Source: Candidatus Yonathbacteria bacterium (lineage in GTDB: Bacteria > Patescibacteriota > Minisyncoccia > Phycocordibacterales > UBA1550). From it: 32,844 nucleotides of DNA. This document shows, one piece after another, positions 7,701-24,803 of the stretch (positions are counted from its first letter, which is position 1; each line of letters begins with the position of its first letter). The DNA lies in the NCBI GenBank assembly GCA_016215205.1, contig JACRKU010000015.1:1-32844 (forward strand). Direction: 5' to 3'. A program made the translations under genes and the position numbers. The notes beneath the pieces are model-generated. The model was given only the letters and a program-made list of their open reading frames with translations. It was not told where the DNA came from and made no database searches.

Positions 7701-7720
7701 TTCAAAGAAATCCCCTGTAC

Positions 7721-7757
7721 CACTTGGAGGCAAGGCCTCCAAGTAAGGCCTCCAAAT
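7721..7757. repeat. REP-like palindrome (ACTTGGAGGC-AAG-GCCTCCAAGT) plus a trailing half copy
   Basis: Same core as the four palindromes around the RAYT at 24.1-24.8 kb; lies between convergent genes. Confidence 0.85.
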
Positions 7758-20451: not shown

Positions 20452-23400
20452 TTATTTCTTTTTAATTGTTTTAATGAATATACTAAAATCTCCAATATCA
20501 ACTTTTCCGTCGCCATTCAAATCGATGCTGGCTCTTTCCGCGGACTTTTTTCCGCTCCAGCGCGCGAGAAAGATGCTCCAGTCTTTGATATCAATCTTTC
20601 CGTCGCCGTTCAGGTCGGCTTTTACAACCGCAAGTTTTGATACGATAAATGTCCTTGTTGTTGAAAAGTCGCTTTCCTTTCCGCCGTCAAGATTTATTTG
20701 TTTTGCTCTTACTTTGTGTTGTCCAAAATCGAGCGCTCCCGTGGGCAAGTTGAACGAATATGCGCCTCCTCTGCCCGCAAGCGCTTCTTTAGACAGTATA
20801 TCATCTAAATAGATGCGAATGGTATGGGCGGGCGATGCATAACCAAAAACATTTAGGTTGCTCCCGCGAGAAACTTGCCCGTAGAGCATATCCACAGTGG
20901 GCGGAACGACGATATCTTTGAACACAGCATCCGTTTTATTGGCATCAACAAGAAAGAATTTTGTTTGCGAGGTTCTTCCGTCAGGGTCTTTTACGAGAAG
21001 ACCGAAACTGTGTATACCTTTTGGAAGGTCCGTGAATCTTATGTTAAAAGACCCGTCCGCTCTTGATATGTCTTGCTGGTTTGCAGTTGTCTCCGTGTCG
21101 AGTTCTTTTTGGACAATTGATATTTTTCCTCCGGGAAAAGCTTTCCCTGAAAAGGTGATGCTTGCGAGTATCGGTCCGGCTGTTACCGGTGTTTCCATTC
21201 CGGGGAGCGCTACGAATGTCGCTTCAATGGTGTGATTTGCTTGCACATTGGTAAATGTATACGAAGTCGATGTTGTGGCGGCAAAACTATCAATGAGGAG
21301 GCTCCCGATTTCGAAACCTGCGTTTGGTGTTATTGTGTACGTTTGCGAGTTTCCTTGAGTGACTACTGTTGACCCGCTTGGTTCCACTGTCCCGTTTGCT
21401 CCGGTGTACGCAATGATAGTGAATGAGCCCGGAGGAGGGGGAATATAGACGAATGTAGCGCTGATGGTGTGGTTCCCCTGCACATCCGAAAATGTGTAAG
21501 TGGTAGAAGTGGCAACTGGTCCGCCGTCAATGAGAAGCGTCTCGATATTATATCCCGAGCTCGGCGTTATTGCGTATGCTTGCGAGGCCCCTTGCGCGAC
21601 AGTCGTTGTTCCTGATGGCGTGACGGTGCCGCCAGTGCCAGAAGATGCGGTAATGGTGTAAGTGATTGCCGCGCAGATTGTTCCGCTCCATGTTGTCCCG
21701 CTCGTACAACTTCCCGTCGCGGTGACTTGCGCGAGTACGGTGCTTGAGTCTCTTGCTTGGACAGTGTTTGGTCCGTTTGTGATTGCGTAGGAGACATTTG
21801 TGCCAGATGCTGAAGTCGAGTATGTATTTATTGTAGTTGTATTGTAAAGATTGGGTGTGCTTGCATTACTAATGCTCCAAGTGAAAGGTATGAGGCAAGT
21901 GCTTGCTCCCGACAATATGGTGCAGGTTGAAGTGGAGGTAGTGAGAGTGGCGGAGGGAGCGCTTCCTACTGTCACGGTTACCGATTGCGTGCTTGAGTTT
22001 CCGCCTGCTCCGGTACAGTACAGAGTGTACGTTGTGGAAGTGGTTAAATTACCGGTACTCTCGCTCCCCGATGTTGCTTTCGCGCCGGCAAATGTTCCGC
22101 CTGTCGCGGTACAGCCCGTGGCATTTGTTGAGTTCCACGAGAGAGTGGTGGCAGTGTTGTAGGCAACATTTGTTGATGAAGCTGAAAGGGTAGCGGTGGG
22201 GACGGAAAGTGTCGTAAATGTTCCGTCAGATGAGTACCCCGTGCCGGTGGAATTCGTCGCATAGCCGCGGTAGTAATAAGGAGTTCCCGTGGTCAATCCT
22301 GTCACCGGCTGAGTGAAAATACCGCCTGTTGTACCTGATGATACACAGCTTGTTGGTGTTGCGGTGAGTCCGTAACAAATACCCCGCGCTGAAAGCACGG
22401 CGGAAACACCGAGAGAGGTTACATTTGCGCCCAGTGTTGCGGTCGAAGTGGAGATGGAAGTTGCGGTTGGAGAGGTGACGGTTGGGACGGCATTTCCCGC
22501 AGTCGGCATACCCGTCACCTGCTGTGTGGATGCATACGCGGTGTAGTTGCCATTCGTATCTTTTGCAAAAAATCTGTAGTAGTACGTTGTGTCGTTAGTA
22601 AGCCCCGTATCAACAAACGATGTTCCACTACTAATGTACCGCACTTGACATGCAGTGCCTCCACAACTGGAACCTACGATAGGAGTCGAACCCTCTGCGG
22701 GCGTACCACCTGTTCCGATGGTTGCCGTATCTCGCAAAACAACGACGTTGGAAAAATCCGTGCTCGTGGAGTTTGTCCAGCTTACGGTCAACTGAGTATC
22801 TCCGACCGTAGTACCTGCTCCGGTGGTTGGCGCGGGGGAGAGGTTATCAATAGTAATCGTTGCGCTTCCTGTGTCAGCGAGAACCTGAGAAGCATTCGTG
22901 CTGGTAAAGGCAGTCACTGTTCCCGTTGTCGCATAGCTTTCTCCCGTATTAGGTGACGGTTGGAGCGCATGTGTTTTTGGCGTGATGCGCACTTTGTAAG
23001 TTGTCGCGCTTGTGGTCACGGGAGCCGTGCAACCGGTAAAAGAAATGATATTGCTCGTCGGATTTATTACTGCTGAACATTTTGCGACGTTACTGTTGTC
23101 GGTCAGGTCGACTTGGGCGATGTTATTCCATGCGCCTGCCGGATTTAAGGTAACGGTTACCGCAGTCACAGTGTCGTTTCCTATGTTAGTTGCTAGAGTA
23201 AAGTAATCAAGGTCAATGATTCCAGACTCTGGCGCAACAGTTACACTAGGTGGGGCGGCACCATCGGCAAGCGTCGTAACAAGAGGCACTTGCTTAAATG
23301 CCGCGACGACCATTCCCCAATCATCCGGGCCGACCGTGTAGGTATGTGTCGTTGCTCCGGCAGTCGCCTGCAATTCGTACATCCTTAAGGAAGTGTATGC

Positions 23401-24000
23401 TCCGTGGTCGATACCCCACACTCCACCGTATTGGGTTTTGTTTCCGGTTACCCCGGTGAGACTGCCGTTGCCGTGCCCGACGATGCTTGTCACAAAATTG
23501 CCGCTTGTCGTCGTGGTCACCGATACTGAAGGATTCGCCGTTGTTCCCGTCGCGCCATTTACTACATCAAGCGCAGACGTGTATCCGCTTTGTGCTTTTG
23601 CGGTTGCGGTAAAAGCGTGAATCGTTCCTGTGTTAGTGTTTGGTATGGACACCGTATAAGCGGACCCTGTTGGCGGGTTCAGGAGATACCACATCTCGGT
23701 ATTTGTCTCGGTGGCGATTCTTGTGCCATCAGCTTGTGTCATCGCAACACCATTGTAGGTCGGCGCCCCGCCGGTTCTTGCGGTCGAACCGACGACAACA
23801 AGATTGAGAACGAGGACGGTCGTTCCCGCGCCACTGGTGTAGGCGAATGTCGCCGGATTTGCCGTTAGACTGCTGTTCTGTTGGCTTGTGTCCAATGTGT
23901 GCGCGGCAAGTACATTAAGGATTTGGAAAAATAAAAAGCCTCCCAATATAAAAATGATGGCAAAAAATTTTGTGAGAGGCTTCTTGAAAAATGACGGCAT
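20452..24000 (-). CDS. Large secreted multidomain surface protein with C-terminal type I dockerin
   Basis: 1182 aa, N-terminal hydrophobic signal; Fn3-like segments; two tandem GTV.PSG...TYT[IF]..VQ.NHTI.ATF repeats; C-terminus ADLNGDGKIDIKDWSIFLARW...IDLNGDGKVDIGDFSIFIKTIKKK. Confidence 0.85.
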   Translation of the reverse strand: MPSFFKKPLTKFFAIIFILGGFLFFQILNVLAAHTLDTSQQNSSLTANPATFAYTSGAGTTVLVLNLVVVGSTARTGGAPTYNGVAMTQADGTRIATETNTEMWYLLNPPTGSAYTVSIPNTNTGTIHAFTATAKAQSGYTSALDVVNGATGTTANPSVSVTTTTSGNFVTSIVGHGNGSLTGVTGNKTQYGGVWGIDHGAYTSLRMYELQATAGATTHTYTVGPDDWGMVVAAFKQVPLVTTLADGAAPPSVTVAPESGIIDLDYFTLATNIGNDTVTAVTVTLNPAGAWNNIAQVDLTDNSNVAKCSAVINPTSNIISFTGCTAPVTTSATTYKVRITPKTHALQPSPNTGESYATTGTVTAFTSTNASQVLADTGSATITIDNLSPAPTTGAGTTVGDTQLTVSWTNSTSTDFSNVVVLRDTATIGTGGTPAEGSTPIVGSSCGGTACQVRYISSGTSFVDTGLTNDTTYYYRFFAKDTNGNYTAYASTQQVTGMPTAGNAVPTVTSPTATSISTSTATLGANVTSLGVSAVLSARGICYGLTATPTSCVSSGTTGGIFTQPVTGLTTGTPYYYRGYATNSTGTGYSSDGTFTTLSVPTATLSASSTNVAYNTATTLSWNSTNATGCTATGGTFAGAKATSGSESTGNLTTSTTYTLYCTGAGGNSSTQSVTVTVGSAPSATLTTSTSTCTILSGASTCLIPFTWSISNASTPNLYNTTTINTYSTSASGTNVSYAITNGPNTVQARDSSTVLAQVTATGSCTSGTTWSGTICAAITYTITASSGTGGTVTPSGTTTVAQGASQAYAITPSSGYNIETLLIDGGPVATSTTYTFSDVQGNHTISATFVYIPPPPGSFTIIAYTGANGTVEPSGSTVVTQGNSQTYTITPNAGFEIGSLLIDSFAATTSTSYTFTNVQANHTIEATFVALPGMETPVTAGPILASITFSGKAFPGGKISIVQKELDTETTANQQDISRADGSFNIRFTDLPKGIHSFGLLVKDPDGRTSQTKFFLVDANKTDAVFKDIVVPPTVDMLYGQVSRGSNLNVFGYASPAHTIRIYLDDILSKEALAGRGGAYSFNLPTGALDFGQHKVRAKQINLDGGKESDFSTTRTFIVSKLAVVKADLNGDGKIDIKDWSIFLARWSGKKSAERASIDLNGDGKVDIGDFSIFIKTIKKK

Positions 24001-24073
24001 ATTTGTCTGTTTATTATACCTTGTATTGGCTATCAGTTACAAACAACAAAACCAAAAAAGTCATTTGGAGGTT

Positions 24074-24098
24074 CACTTGGAGGCCTTGCCTCCAAGTG
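24074..24098. repeat. REP-like palindrome upstream of RAYT (CACTTGGAGGC-CTT-GCCTCCAAGTG)
   Basis: Perfect 11-bp arms, 3-nt loop; 14 bp upstream of ATG 24113. Confidence 0.9.
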
Positions 24099-24112
24099 AT
24101 ACAATTGATTGT

Positions 24113-24775
24113 ATGTCAAAAAGAAAAATTGCGTTTGTAGAAGGGGAGTACTATCACATTTATAATAGAGGGGTTGATAAGCGGAATATTTTTTCAAATG
24201 AAGATGACGTAGATCGATTTCTCCGAAGTATGATTGAATTCAATGCTCTTGAGCCGATAGGGAGCATCTTTGAAAATTCTTTTAACGGGCAACTTGGAGG
24301 CAAGGCCTCCAAGTTGAGAGAGGAGGGGAAGTTGGTAGAGTTTGTTACGTATTGTTTGAACGCTAATCATTACCATTTTCTTCTGATGCAGACTGCAGAT
24401 CGAGGTATAGAAAAATTTATGCATCGTTTGTCTACTGGGTATACTGGATATTTTAATGAGAAGGAGAAAAGAAGCGGATCTCTTTTTCAGGGAAAGTTTA
24501 AGGCCGTACATGTAGACTCAAATGAATATCTTCTTCATATAAGCGCTTATGTGAATTTAAATGATAGAGTCCACCAACTTGGAGGCCTTGCCTCCAAGTT
24601 GGTGGAGAGTCGCTCGAGCTGGGGAGAGTATACAGAAAAAAGCAAAACGGCAGAGGGTATTTGCGATAAGGGCATTATCCTAGGGCAATTTCGAAATAAC
24701 GCTGAATATAAAAAGTTTGCCTTGTCGTCACTTGATGATATTTTGACGAGGCGCGAGGATCCAGAAGAAATATAA
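24113..24775 (+). CDS. REP-associated tyrosine transposase-like protein (RAYT, Y1/TnpA_REP family)
   Basis: EGEYYHIYNRGVDKRNIFSNEDDVDRFL...VTYCLNANHYHFLLMQ...FMHRLSTGYTGYFNEKEKRSGSLFQGKFKAV...LLHISAYVNLN; HxH-type motif in NHYHFLL. Confidence 0.9.
   Translation: MSKRKIAFVEGEYYHIYNRGVDKRNIFSNEDDVDRFLRSMIEFNALEPIGSIFENSFNGQLGGKASKLREEGKLVEFVTYCLNANHYHFLLMQTADRGIEKFMHRLSTGYTGYFNEKEKRSGSLFQGKFKAVHVDSNEYLLHISAYVNLNDRVHQLGGLASKLVESRSSWGEYTEKSKTAEGICDKGIILGQFRNNAEYKKFALSSLDDILTRREDPEEI
24290..24316. repeat. REP palindrome inside RAYT CDS, copy A (CAACTTGGAGGC-AAG-GCCTCCAAGTTG)
   Basis: 27 bp = 9 codons, encodes QLGGKASKL in frame. Confidence 0.9.
24570..24606. repeat. REP palindrome inside RAYT CDS, copy B (TCCACCAACTTGGAGGC-CTT-GCCTCCAAGTTGGTGGA)
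   Basis: 17-bp perfect arms; opposite loop orientation to copy A; core encodes QLGGLASKL. Confidence 0.9.
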
Positions 24776-24776
24776 T

Positions 24777-24803
24777 CCACTTGGAGGCAAGGCCTCCAAG
24801 TGG
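24777..24803. repeat. REP palindrome immediately downstream of RAYT stop (CCACTTGGAGGC-AAG-GCCTCCAAGTGG)
   Basis: Perfect 12-bp arms; begins 1 bp after the TAA codon. Confidence 0.9.

Follow-up and report, generated by a model that had tools for sequence, protein, structure and literature searches.

Hairpins inside a TnpA-REP-like transposase gene of Patescibacteria change together with the hairpins at its ends

The window, the whole 32,844-nt stretch of Candidatus Yonathbacteria DNA analysed here, encodes a Y1/HUH transposase whose gene is flanked by two REP hairpins and contains two more, read in frame as codons. Comparison with related genes shows, at the level of sequence, that the internal sites are long-standing, their codon positions and register being shared across an order-wide family, and that the internal hairpins evolve in concert with the flanking ones. 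We favour, with a probability of roughly 60%, the reading that this is a REP-transposase element with four hairpins, in which two old internal sites are kept in concert by copying between sites.

The palindrome ACTTGGAGGC-NNN-GCCTCCAAGT is present in four exact copies at the locus, with cores at 24075-24097 (loop CTT), 24292-24314 (AAG), 24577-24599 (CTT) and 24779-24801 (AAG); none is expected by chance (100 shuffles, up to 3 mismatches allowed), which bears out the arrangement described in the initial annotation. Hairpin U lies upstream of the gene (24073-24099; predicted RNA fold -23.4 kcal/mol, z -6.5), and hairpin D (24777-24803) follows immediately downstream of the transposase stop codon. 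Internal hairpin A (24290-24316; 12-bp arms, -20.7 kcal/mol, z -4.7) occupies codons 60-68 and encodes QLGGKASKL, and internal hairpin C (24570-24606; 17-bp arms, -33 kcal/mol, z -8.3) contains a 27-mer (24575-24601) that forms codons 155-163 and encodes QLGGLASKL; the fold of the whole message has a z of -5.7. The two internal 27-mers are indeed codon-aligned and encode nearly the same nonapeptide from opposite loops. This orientation neutrality holds as for any palindrome, the reverse complement of which is itself except for the loop; divisibility of the length by three, to which it had been attributed, is not its cause and only keeps the downstream frame. Coding neutrality need not have evolved either, since any palindrome has it trivially; only the codon-centred register goes beyond this. 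Hairpins U and D are inverted in the window, and among relatives 43 flanking pairs are inverted and 48 have the same orientation. A putative promoter overlaps hairpin U on the plus strand (24077-24105; TTGGAG, 17 nt, TACAAT), read by eye and too weak for a consensus scan. In relatives, a TTGG box resembling a -35 element and contributed by the upstream REP most often stands 17 nt before a TATAAT-like box (33 of 99).

The coding sequence (24113-24775, plus strand) specifies 220 aa with the HUH residues H86 and H88 and the tyrosine Y146, all three invariant among 81 homologues. It matches Pfam Y1_Tnp (PF01797) at 29.8 bits, above the gathering cut-off of 23. AlphaFold predicted the protein with a mean pLDDT of 88.8, rising to about 95 in the core, and the palindrome-encoded peptides A and C form low-confidence loops (block means 61 and 65). 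A profile search of PDB sequences with the transposase returned no match; a fold search against all PDB entries did, and the best match to the model was 4ER8, the structure of a REP-associated tyrosine transposase (TnpA-REP) in complex with a REP hairpin. Together with the flanking REPs, these matches uphold the assignment to the REP-associated Y1 transposases. We nevertheless call the gene TnpA-REP-like rather than a canonical RAYT, because its score against the NCBIfam RAYT equivalog NF047646 (20.5 bits) is far under the 80-bit cut-off and because, counted by site class and strand, only 0-2 among 34-58 hairpins have a GT[AG]G tetranucleotide at the 5' foot. Nor was any other conserved guide tetranucleotide found at the hairpin feet across site classes, so that the known RAYT cleavage mechanism finds no sequence support here. 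By these sequence measures the locus is not a canonical RAYT/REP pair. Its nearest named relative, 82-83% identical in amino acids, comes from a Candidatus Yonathbacteria MAG (Patescibacteria). Next to the element, on the minus strand at 20452-24000 of the window, a secreted-looking protein of 1182 aa ends in two DLNGDGKID dockerin-like repeats.

Homologues place the internal hairpins at fixed sites. Among 119 internal hairpins from 93 loci, all but one fall at three sites, A (window residues ~57-70), B (residue 95, in one subgroup) and C (159-162), and in 109 of the 119 the centre of the palindrome coincides with the second base of a codon. At least one internal hairpin is present in 76 of 96 close relatives and none in the other 20, as judged by threshold-based calling that misses imperfect copies such as site A of L016. 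On a quick tree built with the hairpin columns removed, presence changed at least 27 times at A (47 when shuffled) and at least 23 times at C (36 when shuffled), and is thus clustered. Where a hairpin is present, loop A exceeds its hairpin-free counterparts by a mean of 3.4 aa (p=0.0002); the same comparison at loop C gave no gain in length. The nonapeptides are therefore not clean 9-aa extra loops. Homologues without a REP at a site carry unrelated residues there (L015, L014 at A, L011-L013 at C) rather than the similar aligned peptides that would have spoken against a REP origin. Insertion into tolerated loops, also proposed initially, fits the tolerance of the loops (pLDDT ~61-65 against ~95 in the core); a simple recent insertion does not fit codon positions and a register that are the same across an order-wide family, with a sequence that tracks each locus's own REP. 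For this reason we regard A and C not as two lucky insertions but as old resident sites, the sequence of which has been exchanged time and again in concert.

Sharing between each gene and its own flanks was assessed in a homologue set of 146 distinct genes, mostly from the same order, of which 143 had sufficient flanking sequence. The longest exact string common to the interior of the CDS and its own flanks averaged 17.9 nt, against 9.6 nt with permuted flanks (10,000 permutations, maximum 10.2), and strings of at least 15 nt were shared at 66% of the 143 loci compared with 0.56% of mismatched pairs. Two negative controls showed no such sharing: IS200-type TnpA loci of the phylum gave 9.2 nt with their own and 8.6 nt with other flanks (27 ORFs, of which two or three, L164 and L166 among them, are not transposases), and E. 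coli rayT, which has a REP at either side and none inside, had 9 nt in common with its flanks.

The palindrome itself varies widely among relatives (CTTGGAGGC, CTTGGACATC, TGGCGGTT, ATAGTAGACATC, GAGAGGTCC, GCAGCGCTTGG), and the copies at one locus vary together. Arm similarity within loci was 0.87 for A-C, 0.90 for A-U, 0.89 for C-U and 0.83 for A-D, and between loci 0.52 for A-A and 0.64 for C-C. Covariation and pair tests on hairpins that match the flanks are biased by that selection; the following counts come from phylogenetically independent sister pairs for which no flank match was required. Hairpins U and A both changed in 29 pairs, neither in 5 and only one in 4 (p=0.0006), and for U and C the corresponding numbers were 16, 7 and 2 (p=0.0001). 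Compared directly in the few pairs available (18), A and C gave p=0.41 in the table and a rank correlation of 0.56 (p=0.015). Individual loci illustrate the pattern. L149 and L154 encode proteins that are 77% identical in collinear coding sequences, and their palindromes are unrelated at all three of the sites U, A and C. L009 has one half-changed arm (TCAACC) in common between A and C, and in L117 the unpaired positions are identical in all four copies. In L048 a new type occupies U, A and D, and the copy at C looks like an older type in decay; L090 has one type at U, A and C and another at D, the latter being that of the genome's other listed copies. No copying event between near-identical strains was seen, since the relatives are MAGs that are mostly less than 80% identical. 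In many loci (for example L010, L086 and L115) the stems of hairpins C and U/D extend past the REP core into copy-specific complementary arms of up to 23-25 bp, which suggests hairpin-templated correction or nested palindromes.

A pattern search of the whole genome (611 kb, 29 contigs) recovered seven exact copies of the palindrome and one variant, eight in all, confirming that it occurs beyond the transposase locus. The fifth exact copy of the window is a solitary intergenic REP at 7720-7744 (core 7722-7744). It belongs to one of two solitary copies of the element's left end, each a REP with ~30 bp of flank, at C5:7716-7778 (minus strand) and C22:38273-38374; both share the left-end sequence at 24042-24072 of the window (plus strand), which includes the half-arm TTTGGAGG. 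The C22 copy reaches into the first transposase codons, as a MITE-like derivative. These two copies are consistent with past mobility of the element. Relatives carry up to 49 REP copies per genome, compared with 0 or 1 for a control pattern, and a scan of viral contigs gave one distant match. The window genome also has a second transposase of the same family (C3:7734-8174, L045), 43% identical and flanked by a different palindrome of its own; a search for an internal copy of that palindrome found none.

REPs also occur in frame in other genes. The uvrC gene of the window genome carries one at C25:3716-3742 (L007, L219), encoding HLEARPPSG in a hypervariable loop that in 11 congeners has unrelated residues of varying length. 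Relatives have in-frame REPs in eight genes identified by Pfam, namely a P-type ATPase, TGT, a glycosyltransferase, UvrC, MnmA, RNase HII, TsaD and a TP_methylase-domain protein (L193, L195, L202, L206, L207, L208, L212 and L218); six of the eight use register 1 (LExxxPS), which is not that of the transposase. Among 39 sampled REP copies in relatives, 17 lie inside ORFs of at least 150 aa, of which 7 are transposase genes and at least two, lacking any Pfam match, are possibly spurious. With two of its four copies inside the CDS, the locus itself departs from the description of REPs as largely extragenic. One congener uvrC (G001 C24:29300-29988; L232, L233) is split into two frames and lacks the segment around the REP loop, which may reflect a disrupted gene or an assembly error.

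Under the favoured reading, a REP hairpin would stand at each end of the element and a further two would be translated as part of exposed transposase loops, and the concert would reflect copying of hairpins between sites rather than independent point mutation. Point mutations arising independently would hardly make copies agree in entire arms, in half arms and in unpaired positions, and it is from this agreement that we infer copying. The most likely agent would be the HUH transposase working on hairpins in single-stranded form; repair templated by a hairpin is the alternative. More tentatively, two things may keep the hairpins in place: the loops would accept any palindrome centred on a codon, and the cognate enzyme, if bound to hairpins in its own gene, may limit its own expression. 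Such self-regulation would presuppose that the enzyme binds the internal hairpins in the gene or message, which is possible.

The main rival is repeated independent insertion, in which REPs enter coding genes generally and the tolerant transposase loops lose copies and gain the current REP afresh. In-frame REPs in uvrC, where congeners have unrelated residues, and in the eight genes of relatives speak for it, as do the repeated changes of presence at A and C and the greater length of loop A with a hairpin. Against it count the codon-centred register of nearly all internal hairpins, when most of those in other genes use register 1, the lack of a length difference at loop C, and the clustering of presence on the tree. 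As the whole explanation we think it rather unlikely, yet the turnover of presence means that some sites may be lost and then regained by insertion, and the data suggest that insertion contributes. A second rival, to which we give slightly more credence while still doubting it, is that the internal hairpins are under selection to remain recognisable to the cognate transposase, for self-regulation at the DNA or mRNA level, with point mutations following its changing specificity. The great stability of the message hairpins speaks for it, as do the overlap of a promoter-like site with the upstream REP and the site C stems that run past the REP core with matching changes in both arms (for example CACCAACTTGG / CACCGACTTGG). 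Wholesale replacement of the palindromes between 77%-identical proteins argues against it, the shared half-arm changes and unpaired positions point to copying instead, and a fifth of close relatives (20 of 96) have no internal hairpin by the criteria used. Selection for recognisable hairpins and copying can coexist. A third rival, in which the peptide matters and a conserved LGGxASKL motif gives rise to the palindrome incidentally, is highly improbable: LGG..SKL does occur at both window sites and in several relatives, but each change of REP brings an entirely different peptide (NSRHRMSTIN, NLRGPTSQI, LGHPMSKL, GGSTAT), sites without a REP carry unrelated residues, and of the 9,216 synonymous spellings of LGGKASK the one used is that of the REP. 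A bolder version of the favoured reading, which we regard as improbable, would make the gene the master copy of the enzyme's substrate, one that keeps itself up to date: REPs in the coding loops would be overwritten at each change of REP type, leaving enzyme and substrate inseparable, and the loops or message hairpins would feed back on recognition or dosage.

Intragenic REPs and Rickettsia palindromic elements (RPEs) are already known. For REPs in other bacteria, the parts of Di Nocera 2013 (PMC3733652) considered here name uvr and tRNA-modification genes as prominent hosts of in-frame palindromes, as in our set; those parts do not describe the RAYT gene itself as a host, nor concert with its flanks. 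As with RPEs, unrelated proteins of a bacterium with a reduced genome host the present palindromes in frame (uvrC here and eight genes in relatives), but the phylum is another one, and the palindromes match the termini of a transposase gene that has been identified, in which they occupy conserved sites. With RAYT/REP systems (TnpA-REP, REPtrons; E. coli rayT) the locus shares a Y1/HUH transposase of the 4ER8 fold, flanking REP hairpins, further copies in the genome and the pairing of each transposase with its own REP type. It differs in the two REPs that occupy fixed codons of its CDS (E. coli rayT has no internal copy), in the missing GT[AG]G tag (0-2 per site class) and in its low copy number. 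IS200/IS605 elements have a related catalytic domain and subterminal hairpins; the IS200-type TnpA genes of this phylum, however, are without internal copies of their own flanks. Among open-licence PMC papers we found no earlier report that RAYT genes contain REPs or that CPR bacteria carry such palindromes.

In the Patescibacteria, palindromes colonise housekeeping genes in frame, much as RPEs do in Rickettsia, and here a transposase gene with the same palindrome stands in the same genome. One stretch of DNA thus holds both the enzyme and its apparent substrate. Dozens of natural REP swaps are recorded at four positions of a single gene, two of them under coding constraint; they bear on how REP families change sequence and yet stay matched to their transposase, and should allow the effects of copying and of selection to be separated.
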